The position numbers and the translations under genes are program-made. Below are positions 4,185 to 16,817 of a stretch of 36,903 nucleotides of DNA, in pieces (position 1 is the stretch's first letter; every line of letters begins with the position of its first letter). The stretch covers positions 1 through 36,903 of the forward strand of contig PBOZ01000058.1 of the NCBI GenBank assembly GCA_002724555.1, given 5' to 3'. A model generated the notes under the pieces. The model was not told where the DNA came from. It ran no database searches and saw nothing but the letters and a program-made list of their open reading frames with translations. The stretch comes from Rickettsiales bacterium (lineage in GTDB: Bacteria; Pseudomonadota; Alphaproteobacteria; UBA8366).

Positions 4185-5114
4185 ATGGCAAACGATCGAT
4201 TTGGAATGGGTTGGGGCATGGCAGGTGGCACCACGCTGGCATCGGTCGCGGAAGCCCGTGATGCGGCACGACTTGCAGAAAATGCCGGCTTCGATAGTTT
4301 CTGGATTTCACACGCGATGGGAGTGGATTCCATTGCGGCACTTGCCTGCTTAGGTAACGAATTCCCCAACCTTGCCGAGTTTGGCACCTCGGTCGTCCCA
4401 ATCTATGGGCGCCACCCTGTGGGGCTGGCACAGCTTGTAAGAACAGCCCAAAGCGCGGTCGATGGTCGTTTGACCTTAGGAATAGGAACCGGAAACCAAG
4501 GGTATGCAGAGGGTAAGCTTGGCCTTACCTTTGATAAGCCATTTTCTTATATGCGTGACTTTATCGAGGGCCTAGAGCCATTGTTGAATGGGCAGCCTGC
4601 CAATACCAATGGAATGCATGTTGCCGCCCACGCAGAACTTGGTATTGAAGCAGCGGCAACACTAATCCTTCTGGCAGCGCTTGGCCCGAAGATGCTGCGC
4701 TTAGCTGGAAGTTATTTGCAGGGAACCACGCTTGGTCAATGCGGGCCTAAAACCATTTCAAACTATATTTGCCCGCTTCTTAATGAAGGAGCTGAGAGTG
4801 CCGCTCGCGAAGACACCCCTCGAATTATGGCACTGGTAAGAATTTGCGTGACGAAAGACTTCGCGGGAGCGAAGGCATTAGCCAAAGAAATTTCGAGCCA
4901 TTACCAGGCTATACCTTCTTATGCTAATGCTACAAAACACGAAGGTTTGGAAGACCCATCTGATTTACACCTGATTGGCGGCTGGCAAGAAGTTCTGGAT
5001 GGACTGGGTGAATATGCTGCTGCCGGCGCCACAGATCTGCGAATTCAAATAGCGGCGCACGACGAGCCATCGTACGAAGCGAGTTACAGCGCGCTTTTGA
5101 ATTACCTCTCATAA
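4185..5114 (+). CDS. Luciferase-like (LLM class) flavin/F420-dependent oxidoreductase
   Basis: 309 residues of a bacterial-luciferase-type TIM barrel. Recognisable segments are ARLAENAGFDSFWISHAMG (strand 2), FGTSVVPIYGRHPVGLAQ, the GGRLTLGIGTGN-like DGRLTLGIGTGN, then PFSYMRDFIEGLEPLL, and near the C-terminus a GATDLRIQI strand. The pattern, especially VVPIYGRHP and TLGIGTGNQGY, fits the subfamily often annotated F420-dependent (TIGR03564-like). No F420 biosynthesis gene is in the window, so FMN use is equally possible. An AAAAAGGT ribosome binding site precedes the ATG. The gene is transcribed away from the split-barrel flavoprotein, with about 290 AT-rich bases between them holding both promoters. 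Confidence 0.8.
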   Translation: MANDRFGMGWGMAGGTTLASVAEARDAARLAENAGFDSFWISHAMGVDSIAALACLGNEFPNLAEFGTSVVPIYGRHPVGLAQLVRTAQSAVDGRLTLGIGTGNQGYAEGKLGLTFDKPFSYMRDFIEGLEPLLNGQPANTNGMHVAAHAELGIEAAATLILLAALGPKMLRLAGSYLQGTTLGQCGPKTISNYICPLLNEGAESAAREDTPRIMALVRICVTKDFAGAKALAKEISSHYQAIPSYANATKHEGLEDPSDLHLIGGWQEVLDGLGEYAAAGATDLRIQIAAHDEPSYEASYSALLNYLS

Positions 5115-5442
5115 CGACCGAGCGTGAAGCAGGAAGTATGAGTTAAATTTTCAAACTTCGGAAAAACTGGTGACAAAATAGCTCAATCTCGTGCCATTGC
5201 CATCATTGTTATTCTGTTTTGTAACTACAGCGCATACTCAAATAGAGAACCGGCGTTGTGTTCCTATTTACCAAATTTAACTTAGTTTGTAACGACAACA
5301 TCGAGGGTCCGCTCAGTATAACACTCATGATGTCCGGGGCTAAACACGCTCTTTTTTAGGAGTCGGCTAAGATCTAAAAAAGACGAGCATACGGTGTAAG
5401 ATAATCCTTATATCGCCACGCACGCCGTATTTTAACCCTCGA
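5115..5442. other. Intergenic region with an imperfect inverted repeat
   Basis: About 330 bases without a supported gene between convergent genes. An imperfect inverted repeat pairs GCTCTTTTTTAG (5348-5359) with CTAAAAAAGACGAGC (5374-5388), allowing a 3-nt bulge. It contains U-runs inside the arms and lies about 55 nt beyond the end of the leftward zinc-ribbon gene. It could serve as a terminator for either side, but it is not a classical GC-rich one. Confidence 0.35.
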
Positions 5443-5628
5443 TTAATCGTCAAAGGGTCCCGAACCCTCTCTCCAAGTCTGAGTATCTTTACACCTTCTG
5501 CAAATCCGGTTGTTTATACCTCTGGACGCAAATGTTTTTCGACACATGAGACAGGTTCTAACGCCCGGACGAACATCTTTTACTCGGGGTTTCTGATAAT
5601 CTCTCTGCTTCGTTCTGTAGCCCCTCAT
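5443..5628 (-). CDS. Small zinc-ribbon-like protein, 61 aa
   Basis: The frame is open further upstream to a TTG at 5712, but that extension looks non-coding; the ATG at 5628 gives a compact 61-residue protein. It is very basic in its first 25 residues, then has two CxxC knuckles: C26-LM-C29 (RTCLMCRKTF) and C43-RR-C46 (NRICRRCKD), 14 residues apart. The acidic tail is EGSGPFDD. The pattern of a Cys pair, an aromatic, a basic loop ending in N-R-I-C and a second pair is typical of short treble-clef or zinc-ribbon proteins of Alphaproteobacteria, so I treat it as real. It probably binds zinc and perhaps nucleic acid or ribosomes. The ribosome binding site is weak. Confidence 0.65.
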   Translation of the reverse strand: MRGYRTKQRDYQKPRVKDVRPGVRTCLMCRKTFASRGINNRICRRCKDTQTWREGSGPFDD

Positions 5629-6181
5629 GACGATAAGGATCAGATCAAAATGGGCAAAAACGTTAGGAAAAAGAGCACCGTTAAGAATGGAAGGAATGAT
5701 AGTGACATCCAATTCACCGATCTCTTCTCAGCCGCTATAACTCGGGTTTTTTTCATCACGCGCACCAAATATTGTTTAAATCACGTTATTTACGGATCAG
5801 GTTGATTTACAGATCTGTGTCACGATGTCGCGTTGTTTTAATTGTCTTCGGAATACCCGCCACTTTCTATTCTCAGGGCGTACGAAATTCGGCTTCTCCC
5901 CGTCACCTCAAGCTTCAAGAGGATGACCTAGTTTAAAAGGCACTTGAATTAACAATTTGTGAAATGCACAGGATAAATCGACTGCCAAACTTGAACTCCG
6001 GTGGGTACACTGCTCGCACTTTACTTATTCAAAGTATATAATTATATATTTCTACTAAATTATAAGAATATATTCATAACTAATTGTTTTAGTTAATTTT
6101 TATTTATTTCGTATGCGTTTTCTGTTAAGATGGCAGGGTGTCCTCGAAAAGTTAAAAAACACTCAATTAAAAAACATAACT
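5629..6181. other. AT-rich intergenic region
   Basis: About 550 bases between two leftward genes. The part 6010-6180 is extremely AT-rich, with runs such as TATATAATTATATATTT, and contains two copies of TTAAAAAACA near 6150-6175. It should hold the promoter of the zinc-ribbon gene and the transcript end of the SMP-30-like gene. I see no GC-rich terminator and no convincing gene. Confidence 0.4.
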
Positions 6182-7078
6182 TCAATCTGCGTCGAGATTA
6201 ATCCTCGTGATATTCCCGGCATAGGGAAATAGAACATTATTAAATGCTCCCGCGGCAAAAATAGCGTTTCCACCCTTTAAAAATGATACAGTAGTTAAGT
6301 AAGTCTCAGGTCGCGCGAGCGAGCGGACATATGTTCCCGTTACGTCAAACACCATTATGCGGCCTGCGCCATAAATAGCCGCATAGAGACGACCATTAGA
6401 TCCGAACTCCAATCCGTCAGGACCAGTTAAAGGCCCCAATAAGGCCAATTTACTCTCTAAATTTGCAAAAATGCGCGGCAGTCCAAGTTCTCCTTTTCCA
6501 ATTATTGGAAAAGCAAGAATGCGACGCCCAAGATGTTCGGACACGAAGAGCGTTTCCCCGTTACTATCGACGGTCACGCCGTTTGCGTAGTGTAATCCTC
6601 CAATGATGCGTTCCATTCCATGTTCTTGGGACCAGTAAAAGATTGCCCCGCTTGCCGTCGCGTTGGGGTTAAAACTTCCAGAATCAGTTAGATAAACCCC
6701 ACTCCCAAGACTTACTATATCGTTTGGGTTTTGTAATTTCTCCCCACGATTATCGGTTTTAATTTCCTCGACAAGGCGGCCGTGATGATCGGTAATAATA
6801 AGAGACCGTCCAAAGTGGCAGGTTATTGCCCACTGAACACCAATCGGCGCCATACTAGTGGGGCCACACCCCTCATTTTCGAAAAACACAGTGCTTCGGG
6901 TATTATTGTACCGCATTACGCGGTCATGAGGCATTTCTGCATAATAGAGGCTATCTGTTCGGTTGTCCCAGAACAAACCTTCCGGATAATGAGCGGACTG
7001 AACGATAATTTCATTTTGTGCAAGAACATGAAATGGGCTGAAAGAAAATACAAAACAGGCAAAAAACAGACGCCTCAT
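6182..7078 (-). CDS. Exported SMP-30/gluconolactonase-like beta-propeller
   Basis: 298 residues. The N-terminus is a classical signal peptide (basic MRR, hydrophobic core, cleavage after HVLA near residue 20), so the mature protein is predicted periplasmic. The rest is a six-bladed propeller of the SMP-30/gluconolactonase/LRE type. The three protein metal ligands of that family have counterparts here: E33 (YPEGLFWD), N166 (YANGVTVD) and D221 (GPDGLEFG); NPND near 117-120 is also conserved. Family members hydrolyse lactones or related esters with a divalent metal. The ATG overlaps the stop of the upstream membrane-protein gene as ATGA, so the two are translationally coupled and belong to one operon with the spermidine-synthase-like gene. 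The true substrate is unknown. Confidence 0.8.
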   Translation of the reverse strand: MRRLFFACFVFSFSPFHVLAQNEIIVQSAHYPEGLFWDNRTDSLYYAEMPHDRVMRYNNTRSTVFFENEGCGPTSMAPIGVQWAITCHFGRSLIITDHHGRLVEEIKTDNRGEKLQNPNDIVSLGSGVYLTDSGSFNPNATASGAIFYWSQEHGMERIIGGLHYANGVTVDSNGETLFVSEHLGRRILAFPIIGKGELGLPRIFANLESKLALLGPLTGPDGLEFGSNGRLYAAIYGAGRIMVFDVTGTYVRSLARPETYLTTVSFLKGGNAIFAAGAFNNVLFPYAGNITRINLDAD

Positions 7079-7677
7079 CGTTTAAGCCGTAAAAAATATA
7101 AAAGGATAGCCCCTAAAGCAGAAACCAAGGCTAGCAATTCAGTCACCTGGCTCACGGAGACTTGCGGGATCAGAACAAACGTCACAACAAGCGTTCCAAA
7201 TATGTTGCCCAAAGTGGAAATGGCGTAACTGAGACCAGCAACACGGCCAGCGTGATCAATATCGGTTAGGATCACGCGAATCACGAACGGTAATAGCGTA
7301 CCAAGACAGGACAACGGCAAAAATATTATCATGAAGGACGCAGAAATCGTTCCTACAGCTCCGTCGCCCAAGGTCTGTAGAATGAACAACAGCAAAGGTT
7401 TAGACAGTGAAGGTATAAAGTAGAGCCAAATGGCTGTGAAGGCGATCAGTAGGGAGCAAAACCTCAGATCCGGGCGACGGTCAACAAGATACCCTCCAAA
7501 AGAATAGCCAAACATCAAAGCCGCAAGGACTGTTGAGATGAGTGCGCCCCAAGTCTCAATACTGCCGCCAAAGTAAGGAAATAGATAGCGGCTCGCGAGC
7601 ATTTCATAGCCCATAACAACAGAACCAAGCAAAAACACGATGGCCTGTACTAATATGATCCGGACCGAAAATTTCAT
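7075..7677 (-). CDS. Membrane protein matching the N-terminal half of fused MFS/spermidine synthases
   Basis: 200 residues with about six membrane helices. The N-terminal signature MGYEMLASRYLFPYFGGS, then WGALISTVLAALMFGYSFGG and YLVDRRP, matches the membrane half of proteins annotated 'fused MFS/spermidine synthase', where E, R, P, G and WG are conserved. In those proteins a spermidine-synthase-fold domain follows on the same chain. Here that domain is a separate gene just upstream. The start is either ATG 7689 or, as I prefer, ATG 7677, which overlaps the upstream stop as ATGA exactly like the next junction. Function is unproven; members are thought to be transporters or membrane-bound aminopropyl transfer partners. 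Confidence 0.75.
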   Translation of the reverse strand: MKFSVRIILVQAIVFLLGSVVMGYEMLASRYLFPYFGGSIETWGALISTVLAALMFGYSFGGYLVDRRPDLRFCSLLIAFTAIWLYFIPSLSKPLLLFILQTLGDGAVGTISASFMIIFLPLSCLGTLLPFVIRVILTDIDHAGRVAGLSYAISTLGNIFGTLVVTFVLIPQVSVSQVTELLALVSALGAILLYFLRLKR

Positions 7678-8603
7678 TTTTCCAGCCATTTTGCATTATG
7701 GCGTTCAATTGAACGAAGCGTTTCTACCGGCGCAAAATCATCCGTTAAAGGGCCTTGACTTGGTGTATCTCCCAAGAACCGGCGAGCCTTTAGCAATTTC
7801 GGTAATTGATAGCGAAAATTATGGTGTTTTTGAAGTTGCTTGGCGGCCTTTTCAAGTTCAGCTTTTGATCGCCGAAAACCATCATACGCAATTGTCACCA
7901 CATTCCCCGAAGCTGCGTAAAACTCAACTTGGTCAAAAACGGATTGGAGGGTGGCAACTGCTGCTTCGAAAAGCATGGTAGTTGGCTCCACGTTTTGGAT
8001 TAAGGCGCCACCTGGTTGCATTCTGGCCTTAGCGATTTCATAAAATTCTTTGGTCATTAAATGGAAGGGTACGAAGGGACCGCGATAGGCATCGATCATG
8101 ATGACGTCATATTTCTTCTTCGAACGCATCAAATGCATGCGACCATCAGAAATGCGAACATTGAAGTTCGGGGCCTTCTGGATGCCGAAATACTCTTGAG
8201 AGAGCTCAAATACCCTTTCATCAAGCTCAACACTTGTGATATTGGACCTCGGAAGATAGCGGTGCATATACCACGCTGTCGTGCCACCGCCAAAACCAAT
8301 ATCCAAAATATTTTTTAGATTCTTGGCGTATGCAAGTCCTGCCGTCATATAGCGTGTATAAATAACTGGGAGTTCTGTTCGGTCCTTCGTATTAGAAATG
8401 CTTTCGGTAAATATTCGTTTATTATATCCAAAAGTCATTTTTACATATTCATTATTTTTATAAATAAAAATAGTATTATATTTAGATTCTATTCTTTCAA
8501 TTAAATTTTCCGCAAACAAATTACTTGGACACACAAATATAAGAAAACACGATATCAAAAATATTGTCGCCTGTATTGGATTAAAGTGATCGATTTTTTG
8601 CAC
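7674..8603 (-). CDS. Spermidine-synthase-fold protein with N-terminal signal/anchor
   Basis: 309 residues. Residues 10-31 form one strongly hydrophobic segment ending in SNLFA, which reads as a signal peptide or membrane anchor; such a segment is not usual for cytosolic SpeE. The body is a Rossmann methyltransferase-like fold of the polyamine synthase type: ILDIGFGGGTTAWY (99-112) for nucleotide binding, the acidic SVELDER end of strand 2 (E126), ISDGR (D153), and IMIDAYRG (D171) at the catalytic aspartate site. Ordinary spermidine synthases have a D-x-x-D-P-type motif there, so the substrate may differ. It is the first gene of a three-gene overlapping operon. Orientation of the anchor is ambiguous from flanking charges. 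Confidence 0.8.
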   Translation of the reverse strand: MQKIDHFNPIQATIFLISCFLIFVCPSNLFAENLIERIESKYNTIFIYKNNEYVKMTFGYNKRIFTESISNTKDRTELPVIYTRYMTAGLAYAKNLKNILDIGFGGGTTAWYMHRYLPRSNITSVELDERVFELSQEYFGIQKAPNFNVRISDGRMHLMRSKKKYDVIMIDAYRGPFVPFHLMTKEFYEIAKARMQPGGALIQNVEPTTMLFEAAVATLQSVFDQVEFYAASGNVVTIAYDGFRRSKAELEKAAKQLQKHHNFRYQLPKLLKARRFLGDTPSQGPLTDDFAPVETLRSIERHNAKWLEK

Positions 8604-8819: not shown

Positions 8820-10196
8820 ATGAAGGAAGAATTCGAAAATAATGGCTATTACGTCCTTAGGGGTGTGTTGACGGAAACTGAGGTTGACCAGCTTGCAACC
8901 CCAATTCGCGCAGCCTTCTCCCGAGGTGACTACGATACCTATCACAAAGGTCCAGCCTATCCAGCGCCAGGGATCCATTCCATGGGACCGCGTGTCTTGG
9001 AGGATCATCCGGAAATCGCGAACGTTAGTCTAGCCCATCCTGCAATCATGGAGGCAATCGAAGAACTCTTTGGCGAACCAGCGACTTTGGCTCAATATTG
9101 GTCAATTATGCGGCCCCCGGGGGCAGGTCTTAGCGATAAACCCTTTGTGAATGGCAGCGGCGCTCATTACGACTACAAGCCTTGGCGCTGCGTTGGGTCA
9201 TACGTAAAATGGATGTTTGCCGTAATCCCATTTATTGACTACACGGAGACAGCAGGCCCTTTAACCGTATCACCTGGCTCGCATAAAAAGTCGAACTTGA
9301 TGCCGTCTGACGGTCGTGTACATCAGGTGGAAGCGGCTCAAGTCCCAAAGCCATCCGAAATCGAATTAATTGACCCATCCCTAAAAAAGGGTGACGTCGT
9401 CTTAATGGATGGCTTCCTTTGGCATGAACCACGGCCCAATTATGGCAATTCGGATCGTTGCGGCCTTTATATGAAATTTCATGCGAAGTCATCCCCCCCA
9501 GCCTGTGGGCCAACAATTTATCCAACCGCGGTACATCAACACCTATCGGAGCGGGCCAAGCACCTGGTGCCGTATCATCGCAACGACGGGCGTTATGCAG
9601 CGATTGAAGAAACGCCAGTTAATTGCATTGAAGAAGGACAAGTGCTGGTGGAAGATGCTGAAGGCAGAGTTCTGCTTCTTCGTAATGACACAAATGCCTA
9701 CAGTCTCCCAAAATTTGATGCCTCTGAAGACGAAACCGCCGGCATACTAGACGCATGCAATGTCATGGGATCTGTTATCAAAGCTGCGAAAGAGGAGTTG
9801 GGCCTTAAATTGTCATGGTTAAGTTGGTTGGCGGACCGCTCAAACAGTACCAAAGAAGTTGATGGAAACGAATGGCGTTGCAGGGTGTATGGGCATCGCC
9901 TGACCAATACAGCTCCGCCACTCATGCAACCAATAAATCAATATGCCTGGATGACCGCAGCCGAGTTGGAAGAAACCCATTCGGCTGGGCAATTGGTCGA
10001 TGGTGCGGATACCCTGAAATGGCTGCAAATGTGGCAAAATGAGGAAGATGAGGACGGTCGTCCAGTCACTCGTAGCTTTGGTGTACCCACGACGCATGTC
10101 GCGTATTTCAAATACAACGGCAATGGCAACCCTGAGGGCAGCTATATTGTTGGCAGGTTCGACGAAGACGGGGTTCCGATGCCAGCGGATGCATAA
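8820..10196 (+). CDS. Phytanoyl-CoA dioxygenase-type oxygenase fused to a NUDIX-like domain
   Basis: 458 residues. Residues 1-240 are a PhyH-type Fe(II)/2-oxoglutarate oxygenase: N-terminal NGYYVLRGVL, iron ligands H116-Y-D118 (GAHYDYKPW) and H202 (LWHEPRPNYG), with R213 placed for 2-oxoglutarate binding. Residues 265-385 look like a NUDIX fold: QVLVEDAEGRVLLLRND, LPKFDASEDETAGI, then a degenerate Nudix box ending KAAKEELGL (E325, E326, G328), followed by strands WRCRVYGHRLT and YAWMTAAELEE. The box keeps the EExG core but has Lys-Ala where Arg-Glu is usual. The ATG has AGAAGG about 8 nt upstream. The gene is complete and there is no stop or frameshift between the two parts. It lies upstream of and on the same strand as the hydantoinase genes. 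Substrate is unknown. Confidence 0.8.
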   Translation: MKEEFENNGYYVLRGVLTETEVDQLATPIRAAFSRGDYDTYHKGPAYPAPGIHSMGPRVLEDHPEIANVSLAHPAIMEAIEELFGEPATLAQYWSIMRPPGAGLSDKPFVNGSGAHYDYKPWRCVGSYVKWMFAVIPFIDYTETAGPLTVSPGSHKKSNLMPSDGRVHQVEAAQVPKPSEIELIDPSLKKGDVVLMDGFLWHEPRPNYGNSDRCGLYMKFHAKSSPPACGPTIYPTAVHQHLSERAKHLVPYHRNDGRYAAIEETPVNCIEEGQVLVEDAEGRVLLLRNDTNAYSLPKFDASEDETAGILDACNVMGSVIKAAKEELGLKLSWLSWLADRSNSTKEVDGNEWRCRVYGHRLTNTAPPLMQPINQYAWMTAAELEETHSAGQLVDGADTLKWLQMWQNEEDEDGRPVTRSFGVPTTHVAYFKYNGNGNPEGSYIVGRFDEDGVPMPADA

Positions 10197-10261: not shown

Positions 10262-10485
10262 TCGATGCGGTGCAATTACCTGCAATAAACGATGGTTCGG
10301 TCCCACTTTGGTCAATCCTTGGGTCTTAAGGGTGAGGCAGATCATCCTTCCTAAATCTAAAATGATATATTTTAATGTAATTTATTAGTATGTTTCCGAA
10401 ATTTCGATAATCCGTCATAATTTTATACTTTTAAGCCACGTATTCCTTGAAGGGCAGCGGCAATAGGCCATGTCTCAATAGCATC

Positions 10486-12501
10486 ATGATTATACTCGGT
10501 ATCGATGTTGGCGGCACCTTCACAGACTTGGTGTTGCACGATGCGCAGACAGGGCAATTGCGCTCACTAAAGACGCCTACCACACCGCCTGCCTTTGCAG
10601 ACGGCGTATTAAACGCCATTAATAATACCGGGCTCCCCGCAGTAGAAATCGGCAGCATTGTTCACGGAATGACAGTTGCGACGAATACAGCGCTTGAGAT
10701 GAACGGCGCGAGGCTTGGCGTGATCACAACACGAGGGTTTCGAGACGTTCTGATTGTCGGCCGCGGTAACCGAACGCAGTTATACGATATTAAAGCAGTG
10801 AGGCCCCCGCCGCTTGTAGAGCGCGCTCGCGTGCTTGAAGTCGACGAACGAATCACAGCGACCGGCGAAGTGTATCTTCCGTTAAACAATGATCATGTCG
10901 CATCCGCTTGTGAGCAGCTTATGGACGAAGGCGTCGAAGCGATCGCTATCTGTTTTCTTCATTCCTATGCCAACCCAGATCACGAACGCCGTGCAGCTAA
11001 AATCGTCCAGCGTGCCCTTCCAAATATTCCAGTTTCGATTTCATCCAACATCTTACCCGAATACCGTGAGTTCGAGCGGTTCTCAACAACGGCGTTGAAT
11101 GCTTATGTTGGGCCAAAAGTTTCGCAATATTTAGGACGCTTGTCGAATAGTTTGGCGAAGAGCGGCATTGTCGCGCCCTTGCGGATTATGGGATCAAATG
11201 GTGGCACCTGGAGTGCGGAAGCGATGTCGGCCGAACCGGTTAATGCCATGCTCTCCGGACCCGCCGGCGGTGTTACGGCGTCTATCGGCATCGCAAAGCT
11301 GCTGGGACTGCCAAATATAATCACCTATGACATGGGTGGCACCAGCACCGATGCATGCCTAATACGTGATTACGAGTATAATATGACCACAGAGGGGCAT
11401 GTCGGGATGTGGCCGAACCGAGCGCCACAAATCGAGATCAAGACCGTTGGTGCTGGAGGTGGGTCAATCGCGTATATCGATCCTGGTAAATTCCTTAATG
11501 TAGGCCCGCGTTCGGCAGGAGCAGCTCCCGGCCCTGCGTGTTACGGTAAGGGTGGAACAGAGCCTACGGTCACCGATGCCAATGTAATTTTGGGAAGGTT
11601 CCGTCCAGATTTAGCCCTTGGCGGTGAAATTAAGCTCGATCAAGACGCAGCATTAAGCGTCGTCTCATCACTAGGCGATCAGCTCGAACTATCGCCAGAG
11701 CGAATGGCAGAAGGCATCATCCGTCTGGCAGTTGCACGGATGACCGCCACCGTTAAGGAGATTTCAGTAATGCGCGGACTTGATCCCCGCGATTTTACAC
11801 TTTTTGCCTATGGCGGCGCCGGCCCTCTGCATGCTGCGGATATTGCCGAGGAACTTGGCATTACACGGATCGTCATACCACCGATGCCAGGTACGTTTTC
11901 AGCATTTGGCCTCCTGACTGCCGATACACGATACGACATCACAAAAACCCGTCTTACAAAGCTACAAGATACTGACTTGGCTGGCCTCGAAGATATTCTT
12001 GAGCCGATGCGGGCGGAGGCACGAGATCGATTGCACCGCGATGGATTTGAAGATGACGACATTCGGCTTCAGGTCTATCTCGATATGCGATTTGTCGGAC
12101 AAGCGTTTGAATTGACCACGCCCATGCCCGACAGTCCACGACACATCACCGAAATTACGGAAGCGTTCCAAACAATCTACGAAGAACGTTACGCTCAAAA
12201 GGATAGCGGGCCATGCGAAATTGTTTCGTTCCGGGTCGTCGGATTTGGAAGTGGCCCGTCAATAGATTTGCCAGTCAAGTCAGACGACGCCAAAGCTACG
12301 CCGACAGCGATACGGCCAATTTCCTTCGAATCACAATTTGTCGACACGCCAATCTACCAACGCGCTAAATTGCCGACGCATACCATTATTTCCGGACCTG
12401 CTGTTATTGAGGAAGACGGAGCCACTACGGTCGTCCCCCCTAAATTTACTGCCTCGGTCGACAATTATGGCATTTTAACGCTTATGCGGGAGGGGGCATG
12501 A
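10486..12501 (+). CDS. hyuA: Hydantoinase/oxoprolinase A subunit
   Basis: 671 residues from the ATG at 10486. A TTG at 10447 would add 13 residues that do not belong to the family, which starts just before the phosphate loop IGIDVGGTFTD. The order is the N-terminal hydantoinase A domain (actin-like ATPase fold; LGIDVGGTFTDLVLHD), the central domain with SGPAGGVTASIGIAKLLG and YDMGGTSTDACLI, and the end of the ATPase fold with FAYGGAGPLHAADIAEELG and PPMPGTFSAFGLL. Family members use ATP, with the B subunit, to open hydantoins or oxoproline or to carboxylate ketones; the substrate here is not determined. The stop overlaps the hyuB start as ATGA, so the subunits are made together. Confidence 0.9.
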   Translation: MIILGIDVGGTFTDLVLHDAQTGQLRSLKTPTTPPAFADGVLNAINNTGLPAVEIGSIVHGMTVATNTALEMNGARLGVITTRGFRDVLIVGRGNRTQLYDIKAVRPPPLVERARVLEVDERITATGEVYLPLNNDHVASACEQLMDEGVEAIAICFLHSYANPDHERRAAKIVQRALPNIPVSISSNILPEYREFERFSTTALNAYVGPKVSQYLGRLSNSLAKSGIVAPLRIMGSNGGTWSAEAMSAEPVNAMLSGPAGGVTASIGIAKLLGLPNIITYDMGGTSTDACLIRDYEYNMTTEGHVGMWPNRAPQIEIKTVGAGGGSIAYIDPGKFLNVGPRSAGAAPGPACYGKGGTEPTVTDANVILGRFRPDLALGGEIKLDQDAALSVVSSLGDQLELSPERMAEGIIRLAVARMTATVKEISVMRGLDPRDFTLFAYGGAGPLHAADIAEELGITRIVIPPMPGTFSAFGLLTADTRYDITKTRLTKLQDTDLAGLEDILEPMRAEARDRLHRDGFEDDDIRLQVYLDMRFVGQAFELTTPMPDSPRHITEITEAFQTIYEERYAQKDSGPCEIVSFRVVGFGSGPSIDLPVKSDDAKATPTAIRPISFESQFVDTPIYQRAKLPTHTIISGPAVIEEDGATTVVPPKFTASVDNYGILTLMREGA

Positions 12502-14611: not shown

Positions 14612-16114
14612 ATGAACGACACTGCAAGCAGCACAATGTCTAATATTCCGAGAGGACTGATCCTCCTAGCGGTCTCCCTGTGCACGATGCTTTACGCAAT
14701 CACCCTCACAATCGTGAATGTCGTACTGCCGCAAATGCAAGGAGCATTATCAGCAACACCGGACCAGATAAGCTGGGTTGTCACCCTCAACGTAATTGCT
14801 ACCGCGGTCGCGACCCCAATTACGGGTTGGATGGTTGCTCGTTGGGGCCATCGCAATGTTCTAATCTGGTCCATAATCGGATTTTCACTTTTCTCGGCGC
14901 TATGCGCCTTCGCAGATACTCTTTTAGCGCTTCTGATATACCGAGTGGGCCAAGGGGCATTCGGCGCGCCTCTTGTGCCTTTAGCCCAGGCCATTATCGT
15001 TGCCGTCTACCCACCAGAAAGACGCGCTTTTGCTCAAGGTATTTTTGGCATTGCCGTTGTAATTGGACCGGCAATCGCACCTGCACTCGGTGGATTTTTA
15101 GCGGAGGAGTATAACTGGCGTTTCGTTTTTTTCCTGATACTGCCACTTTGCGCAGCAACATTTCTTGCAGTCTGGTTTTGGGTACACGATAACGATGAAC
15201 GCCGCCCAACTGGGTTAAATTGGACGGGTTTTCTTGCACTTTCGGTTGCAGTCACTTGTGGCCAGTTGATGATGGATCGAGGTGAACGCCTCGATTGGTG
15301 GGATTCCTATGAAATTTTAGCCTATTTGGCCCTGATCGTGACGGCGTTTTGGGTCTTCGTTGTTGATACGGTGACGCACGATAGACCCTTTATAAATCCG
15401 CGATTGTTCATAGACCGTAATTTCTCAATCGGCCTGATACTCGTCTTCATTTACGGAATGCTGAATATTACGCCGACCGTTTTGATACCGACAATGCTGC
15501 AAAATTTAATGGGTTACCCGGATTCGATAATAGGTATTCTGCTGGCATCGCGCGGAGCCGGCATGGTTCTCGGGTTTTTCGCGGTGGCATATATAGCCAA
15601 ATTTGACCCACGAATTGGAATGATAATTGGTGTTGCGGCAATTGGTCTTTCAGGTTGGAACATGGCGTTGTTCAACCTTGAAGTAGACCCATTTACGGTT
15701 GCGTTAAACGGAATTTTACAAGGCATTGGCTCTGCAATAATGTGGGTTCCGCTATCAGTCGTGGCGTTTGCTACACTGCCAATACATTTGTTACCGGATG
15801 CTTCCTCGATATTTCATTTACTCCGTAATTTTGGCAGCAGCATTTTCATTTCAGTCAGTGTCCTGGCAATTTCGCGCACAGGCATGATCAGTTATTCGGA
15901 ACTCGCAGAAAACATAAACCCCTTCTCAGACAACGCCCAATTTCCCGAAATAATGGGCTTATGGTCTTTTGATTCGGTCCAAGGTCTCGCAGTGTTAGGC
16001 TCTGAGGTCACCCGCCAAGGAATGATGGTCGGTTATGCCAATTCGTTCGCACTTTACGGGGCTGTTGCCTTTGCGGCTATTCCTCTAATGCTTCTCGTAA
16101 AAATAAAGGAATAA
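14612..16114 (+). CDS. DHA2-type (EmrB/QacA) MFS transporter
   Basis: 500 residues with about 14 membrane helices, the DHA2 number. The family is shown by VVLPQMQGALSATPDQISWV in helix 1-2, motif A GWMVARWGHRNVLI, and motif C GIAVVIGPAIAPALGG, the antiporter signature. It should be a proton-driven exporter in the inner membrane. EmrB-type pumps usually sit with an EmrA membrane-fusion protein; none is present here. The position 53 bp after hyuB, on the same strand and behind an inverted repeat, suggests transport of the hydantoinase substrate or product, or export of a toxic intermediate. The start ATG follows GGAG at 14603-14606. Confidence 0.88.
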   Translation: MNDTASSTMSNIPRGLILLAVSLCTMLYAITLTIVNVVLPQMQGALSATPDQISWVVTLNVIATAVATPITGWMVARWGHRNVLIWSIIGFSLFSALCAFADTLLALLIYRVGQGAFGAPLVPLAQAIIVAVYPPERRAFAQGIFGIAVVIGPAIAPALGGFLAEEYNWRFVFFLILPLCAATFLAVWFWVHDNDERRPTGLNWTGFLALSVAVTCGQLMMDRGERLDWWDSYEILAYLALIVTAFWVFVVDTVTHDRPFINPRLFIDRNFSIGLILVFIYGMLNITPTVLIPTMLQNLMGYPDSIIGILLASRGAGMVLGFFAVAYIAKFDPRIGMIIGVAAIGLSGWNMALFNLEVDPFTVALNGILQGIGSAIMWVPLSVVAFATLPIHLLPDASSIFHLLRNFGSSIFISVSVLAISRTGMISYSELAENINPFSDNAQFPEIMGLWSFDSVQGLAVLGSEVTRQGMMVGYANSFALYGAVAFAAIPLMLLVKIKE

Positions 16115-16166
16115 GATACTGGCAATAAACGTCTTGTCGCGTATTCCCGTTGTGTTAATTTAACTC

Positions 16167-16652
16167 ATGCTTTTACAGATTAAAATTAAGATGGTTTTTT
16201 CGGCAACCGTCGTAATTGTACTGCTTGGCGCTTGCGCACAAAATGAGCCTTTAAGCGCAACACAGTCAAACTCTGCGGCAAGTCTTAAAACTGAGATCTT
16301 CCGTCCAGTTTCTGACGTACCTATTCCAAAAGATGCGGCATTAAATGCTGAAAGGTCGCTTATCCTTAGTGATAGAGATGAATGGACCGGTCGTTTAGTT
16401 ATGTATAGTAGTATAACCGCGACTGAAGCTTACGCCTTTTACAAAACACAAATGCCCTTGTTTGACTGGACACCAATTATGTCTATCCAATCGGAGACCA
16501 GTGTGTTGACATTTTCTCGTACGGAAAGGGCCGCCACCATCCAAATAGAGCGTCGAGCATTAGGTGGTTCGTCAATTACTGTAACCGTAGCCCGAGCGCA
16601 GGATACTATTCAATCATCACAAATAAAGCCCTCTGGCCAACAGTTGCGATAG
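16167..16652 (+). CDS. Predicted lipoprotein, 161 aa
   Basis: The N-terminus has a lipobox, VIVLLGAC, with the lipid-attachment Cys at residue 23 after basic residues (KIK) and a hydrophobic core. The mature part is about 139 residues, with a low-complexity Ser/Ala/Thr start and a compact beta-rich domain (TGRLVMYSSITATEAYAFYK, VLTFSRTERAATIQIERRAL). The segment 'AYAFYKTQMPLFDWTPI' resembles small alphaproteobacterial lipoproteins whose function is not known. Start choice between ATG 16167 and ATG 16191 is open; the second would leave a signal peptide with almost no basic end. It follows the MFS gene by 52 bp on the same strand. Confidence 0.7.
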   Translation: MLLQIKIKMVFSATVVIVLLGACAQNEPLSATQSNSAASLKTEIFRPVSDVPIPKDAALNAERSLILSDRDEWTGRLVMYSSITATEAYAFYKTQMPLFDWTPIMSIQSETSVLTFSRTERAATIQIERRALGGSSITVTVARAQDTIQSSQIKPSGQQLR

Positions 16653-16817
16653 CTTGAAATTTATTTTATGGGACGATTAAATTCCGAAGTATAGGGCGCC
16701 CGGTAATATTAACGGCAAAGCGGTACTCTTTCGGTTTTTCATTATTCCCGCCATCCCCCAATACCGAGTTAACCTAAATCGAGATGCTGGGCCTGAACAC
16801 GATGCCAAGGCGTTAGG

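Follow-up and report, generated by a model that had tools for sequence, protein, structure and literature searches.

The characterised precedent for the proteins described here is NHMT, a fungal seven-transmembrane N-terminal histidine methyltransferase that carries a SpdS-like domain (PMC10349129). NHMT resides in the ER, where it methylates the N-terminal histidine of secreted LPMOs, and its SpdS-like domain lacks the acidic residue that binds decarboxylated SAM; its authors asked how the ER is supplied with SAM and reported the 7TM domain as unique to filamentous fungi (PMC10349129). Many bacterial genomes carry genes annotated as 'fused MFS/spermidine synthase', a family whose model, NF037959, describes a single chain in which an MFS half is followed by a spermidine-synthase-like (SpdSyn) domain. 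The open full-text literature that we searched holds no earlier account of this family, fused or split, and no paper establishing its function. In this study we describe an operon in which the two halves of this family are encoded by separate genes and are joined by a third gene of the SMP-30/gluconolactonase family. We estimate at about 0.5 the probability that this operon encodes a transferase with the spermidine-synthase fold that binds SAM outside the cytoplasm and is most likely a methyltransferase, together with a half-MFS partner and an exported SMP-30-type hydrolase.

The operon lies on the minus strand of the window, by which we mean the whole stretch of 36,903 nucleotides that was analysed. 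Gene 1 (8603-7674, minus strand) has a GTG start and encodes a SpdSyn-like protein of 309 aa with a spermidine-synthase fold that is predicted to be exported; gene 2 (7689-7075, minus strand) encodes a half-MFS membrane protein of 204 aa with six transmembrane helices in its AF2 model; and gene 3 (7078-6182, minus strand) encodes an SMP-30/gluconolactonase-type beta-propeller of 298 aa that is likewise predicted to be exported. The open reading frame calls agree with an earlier note on this DNA, which had described overlaps at both junctions, and give 16 bp between genes 1 and 2 (7674-7689, minus strand) and 4 bp between genes 2 and 3 (7075-7078, minus strand). The same note had recognised that what the fused family joins in one chain is encoded here by two genes in reversed order, and our searches bear this out, since gene 2 matches the N-terminal half of NF037959 (positions 7-180, 73.5 bits, cut-off 40) and gene 1 its C-terminal half (positions 280-480, 89.9 bits, cut-off 40). 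The split proteins share with the fused chain its motifs and its seven hydrophobic segments, but they differ from it in being two genes with the SpdSyn part first, in having a signal peptide in the place of the seventh segment and in being linked to an SMP-30 gene. A frameshift or an assembly error that split a fused gene is ruled out, given that the SpdSyn and MFS parts stand in the opposite order to that in fused genes and that the same order of the trio is conserved in a sister species and in a genome from another family of the class. Differences at third codon positions greatly outnumber those at first and second positions in all three genes, as expected of genes under purifying selection. 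A search against PHROGs gave nothing useful.

Sequence and fold both place the gene 1 product among relatives of spermidine synthases. It matches PF01564 (Spermine_synth) with 52 bits against a cut-off of 22.9 and is also similar to NF003380/TIGR00417, and its SAM-site motifs are G103-F-G-G-G107, E126-x-D128 and D153-G-R155, followed by D171-A-Y-R-G and a C-terminal T287-D-D-F-A-P. The AF2 model of this domain, built from an alignment of 14 sequences, has a mean pLDDT of 75, with low confidence in the C-terminal part that includes the LTDDFAP motif, and its fold matches include spermidine synthases, the best being 3gjy. METTL13 (5wcj) ranks fifth among these fold matches and is also found by sequence with an E-value of 9e-10; this human eEF1A methyltransferase resembles gene 1 in both sequence and fold but has no membrane part. 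The close subfamily of gene 1 is rare, with high-scoring members in 5 of 385 genomes of the class. More distant relatives occur in another genome (L063, G276:C57, at about 4649-7434 and 15862-16782), where genes for four SpdSyn-like proteins, all exported, standing alone and lacking an MFS half, cluster near genes that look like those of spore-coat-U/Csu-type pili.

Compared with SpeE (TIGR00417, PF01564), the gene 1 product has the fold and the layout of the SAM site in common, but it differs in its predicted export and at the residues that define the canonical reaction. It has been reported that the Asp or Glu of the GxG(D/E)G motif binds decarboxylated SAM in canonical enzymes (PMC10349129). 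This position is Asp in all five canonical SpeE controls, whereas it is Gly106 in gene 1 and non-acidic in every family member that we aligned; the canonical acceptor motif D-[ST]-x-D-P reads DAYRG in gene 1, with only its first Asp retained. Our alignments thus give good support to the view that this domain is without the acid on which canonical aminopropyltransferases rely to bind decarboxylated SAM. The remaining positions of the site, namely E/D-x-D/N, D-G/A-R and the catalytic Asp, are largely retained across distant members of the family.

These data bear directly on the possibility that gene 1 encodes a true periplasmic aminopropyltransferase that supplies the cell surface with spermidine or a related polyamine. 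The similarity to PF01564 and NF003380/TIGR00417 and the fold matches to spermidine synthases would fit such an enzyme, as would the presence of spermidine on the surface of Pseudomonas, which Johnson reportedly described in 2012 (listed among the references of PMC11107197). However, both the acid that binds decarboxylated SAM and the D-[ST]-x-D-P motif are lost across the family, and gene 1 scores 62.7 bits with the curated speE model, far under its cut-off of 249.55. Moreover, G085 and G762, two host genomes listed as 100% complete, have neither a speD-type SAM decarboxylase (PF02675) nor a canonical speE above the cut-off. PF02675 is found in four other hosts (G001, G050, G307 and G381), while the genome from which the window comes, 65% complete, gave no match; PF01536, the eukaryote-type SAM decarboxylase, matched nowhere, and neither did its control. 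Since some hosts have speD and speE while G085 and G762 have neither, polyamine synthesis and the SpdSyn-like family appear to occur independently of each other. On the motifs, the score and these two genomes, we judge a canonical aminopropyltransferase to be quite unlikely. The earlier note had left the choice between an aminopropyl- and a methyltransferase-like enzyme open; our analysis speaks against the former, and it favours a SAM-dependent activity of methyltransferase type because the acid for decarboxylated SAM is lost, the acceptor motif is changed and the plan of the protein is like that of NHMT.

The location of this domain was addressed by hydropathy, the positive-inside rule and cysteine content. 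Gene 1 begins with a predicted signal peptide or N-terminal membrane segment (8511-8603, minus strand; residues 1-31), with a hydropathy peak at residues 14-30 and a plausible signal-peptidase site in FVCPSNLFA/EN, and gene 3 begins with a predicted signal peptide (7019-7078, minus strand; residues 1-20), in which a hydrophobic stretch ends at a plausible site in SPFHVLA/QN. The N-terminal signals that the earlier note had seen in both proteins are therefore apparent in our reading as well, and, at the level of sequence, the hydrophobic segment and plausible cleavage site of gene 1 lend no support to the view that its N-terminal segment is neither inserted nor cleaved. All nine split SpdSyn proteins that we read have a predicted signal peptide, two of them with a hydrophobic stretch that falls below the threshold and is visible in the N-terminal sequence. 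In the fused proteins, the segments of the MFS half are followed by a Lys/Arg loop, by a further hydrophobic segment, often with an A-x-A-like end, and then by the SpdSyn domain. Seven segments are seen in most proteins of a wider set of fused members; the exceptions are cases in which a simple threshold misses or adds one, or truncated frames. The signal peptide of gene 1 aligns exactly with the seventh hydrophobic segment of its fused relatives. Because the basic loop would lie inside, the SpdSyn domain is predicted to lie outside the cytoplasm in both forms. Cysteine content offers independent support for this prediction: no Cys occurs in the SpdSyn domains of the window, G001 and G381 or in those of four fused proteins from Alphaproteobacteria, while the canonical SpeE proteins of the class that were compared have 2-5 each. 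The domain of G762 has two, and those of Gammaproteobacteria have one conserved pair 13-14 residues apart, with a third Cys in one of five; the SMP-30 subfamily, too, has a single conserved pair. A placement of both the SpdSyn-like and the SMP-30 domains at the periplasmic side of the inner membrane is thus well supported by these predictions.

The split operons can be regarded as a natural experiment, in which the chain is cut, a signal peptide appears on the catalytic half and the domain would be found outside the cytoplasm. This arrangement is like that of NHMT, in that seven hydrophobic segments, or six helices and a signal peptide in the split form, lead into a SpdS-like domain without the acid for decarboxylated SAM. 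It is a likeness of plan, read from the published description of NHMT, and not a proof of common descent. The action of NHMT on proteins of the secretory route is a further parallel to the activity proposed here, whereas NHMT differs from the proteins of the operon in being eukaryotic and a single chain. The likeness nevertheless modifies two points of the earlier note, which knew of no pathway of this kind and asked how a donor such as decarboxylated SAM or SAM would reach a periplasmic enzyme. A precedent does exist in NHMT (PMC10349129); the puzzle of donor access is real, but it is shared with this characterised enzyme, and the donor is more likely to be SAM than decarboxylated SAM.

The half-MFS protein would provide the membrane part of such an enzyme. 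Its AF2 model has a pLDDT of 90 and six long transmembrane helices, and the matches listed for this model in the PDB are MFS-fold transporters with modest E-values (best 8e-3, probability 1.00); a sequence search of the PDB with this protein gave no match. Unlike a complete MFS transporter with twelve helices, gene 2 has six and aligns over about half of the transporter length. A survey of a sample of 385 genomes of the class finds 26 matches to the MFS half in 23 genomes, all of them fused-size frames or known split pairs (two split cases); a stop codon breaks one frame of 417 aa. Helix 1 contains two residues, Glu29 and Arg34, that do not vary among 23 diverse sequences, which suggests that the MFS half does more than anchor the enzyme. 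The same two residues, together with the MFS fold predicted for the partner and an acceptor-pocket motif unlike that of canonical enzymes, could also suit a non-catalytic SpdSyn-fold domain that captures a periplasmic nucleoside or polyamine and hands it to the MFS half acting as a dimeric transporter. We consider such a binding or sensing role unlikely, since the positions of the SAM site and the catalytic Asp are retained in distant members and the precedent, NHMT, is catalytic (PMC10349129).

The third protein is clearly a member of the SMP-30 family, matching PF08450 (SGL) with 96.7 bits (cut-off 26.3) and finding DrP35 and lactonases among the PDB structures. It has in common with DrP35 and the gluconolactonases of this family the propeller and the metal-ligand residues. 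E33, N119, N166 and D221 align with the metal-ligand positions of SMP-30 and DrP35, and these putative ligands are conserved in all members of the subfamily compared, in agreement with the earlier note that the ligands are kept. In contrast to the family at large, gene 3 belongs to a distinct exported subfamily with an invariant Cys pair, C71/C87 (GCGPT...CH), that is genetically linked to the MFS half or forms one chain with it. At E-values up to 1e-50 this subfamily occurs in 8 of 385 class genomes, and most of the genomes with the strongest matches also have the close SpdSyn subfamily. The simplest reading of this association is that the SMP-30 protein may hydrolyse the substrate or the product of the SpdSyn-like enzyme.

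The co-occurrence check that the earlier note had proposed was run and finds the association in several genomes. The sister species of the same genus (G001, a Rhodospirillaceae MAG, PAZH01000073.1) has the same trio in the same order, with identities to the window of 74% for the SpdSyn-like protein, 79% for the MFS half and 63-64% for the SMP-30 protein, and its trio adjoins the same PhyH and hydantoinase-type genes as in the window. G762, from another family of the class, also has the order SpdSyn, MFS half and SMP-30. Two genomes of family f46 have the SMP-30 gene first, with a 4-bp overlap (G085) or a 3-bp gap (G307) to a fused MFS-SpdSyn gene, and in G006, from the window's own family, one opposite-strand gene stands between the fused gene and the SMP-30 gene. 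Finally, G154 (L100:853-2436, G154:C240) encodes the MFS half, the seventh segment and the SMP-30 domain in one chain of 527 aa, which scores above the NF037959 cut-off through its N-terminal part although it has no synthase part. Since the order of the trio is conserved, the SMP-30 gene adjoins fused genes and a propeller-MFS fusion exists, the view that the three proteins form one conserved unit appears well supported. Three unrelated genes that are co-transcribed by chance would be a most improbable account; it could appeal to the split pair of G381, which has no adjoining SMP-30 gene, but it is contradicted by the conserved linkage and by the recurrence of the same parts in several families in varied arrangements, among them gene fusions of two kinds. 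Two further genomes differ from these: in G226 no SpdSyn gene adjoins the SMP-30 gene, and in G050 a fused gene and truncated pieces of SMP-30 lie at the ends of different contigs, which is compatible with linkage or with its absence. Near the fused gene of G006 we also observed genes for a HPVFHGCIDWHSAVH-motif protein and a caspase-like protein (L044:5508-6617 and 10439-11941), which are possible further partners.

The separation of the two halves, which the earlier note had contrasted with the single chain of the fused family, is confirmed, but it is not special to this operon, as G381 and Gammaproteobacteria have split genes too. In five Gammaproteobacteria-like genomes of the same phylum but other families, with the class read from their genes, the MFS half is followed by a SpdSyn gene with its own predicted signal peptide, in neighbouring or overlapping genes whose order is opposite to that in the window; no SMP-30 gene was seen beside these five pairs. 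A tree of the SpdSyn proteins joins the split genes of Alphaproteobacteria in one group inside fused relatives, with moderate support (81/66), and puts the other split genes in a group of their own, so the chain has probably been cut, or joined, more than once. Three of the genomes that encode the two halves separately (L095, L096 and L099) have the pair just downstream of a uvrA-like gene. The absence of an SMP-30 gene beside the pair of G381 and beside the gammaproteobacterial pairs suggests that the SMP-30 protein is an accessory and not a core component. The same distribution bears on a SAM-cleaving or aminocarboxypropyl-transferring enzyme that would make a lactone, such as a homoserine lactone, for hydrolysis by the SMP-30 protein. 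Such a reaction would account for the pairing with a lactonase-type propeller, and it would be in keeping with the absence of the acid by which canonical enzymes favour decarboxylated SAM, but many members of the family occur without SMP-30, and we regard this reaction as very unlikely.

We therefore return to the methyltransferase reading of this operon, in which the SpdSyn-like domain would use SAM and methylate a small molecule or an exported protein in the periplasm. The half-MFS protein may hold the enzyme at the membrane and, as a guess, may deliver SAM or the substrate to the enzyme, and the SMP-30 protein may act on the same substrate or product, for example by hydrolysis of a lactone or an ester. 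By the same reasoning, the proteins now called fused MFS/spermidine synthases are probably misnamed and most likely methyltransferase-like enzymes acting outside the cytoplasm. A much broader proposal, which is conceivable but which we find doubtful, is that they are widespread bacterial extracytoplasmic SAM enzymes in which the half-MFS carries SAM or substrate across the inner membrane to a SpdSyn-fold methyltransferase, and here also serves the SMP-30 protein; the fused family would then be renamed as the bacterial counterpart of NHMT. If these readings are true, a common annotation is wrong and SAM-dependent chemistry takes place in the bacterial periplasm, by a SAM route that becomes testable with defined genes and for which the likeness to NHMT offers a concrete activity to assay.

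Several other genes in the window deserve mention. Divergent from the trio, and a neighbour of it in the sister species as well, is a gene for a PhyH-type dioxygenase that is extended at its C-terminus by about 240 aa (8820-10196). An open reading frame at 69-644 matches HalD (PF23169, halogenase D). The 207-aa protein encoded at 28581-29204 matches only positions 173-238 of the 295 in PF06181 (urate oxidase N-terminal), suggesting that it is a short or divergent member of that family.
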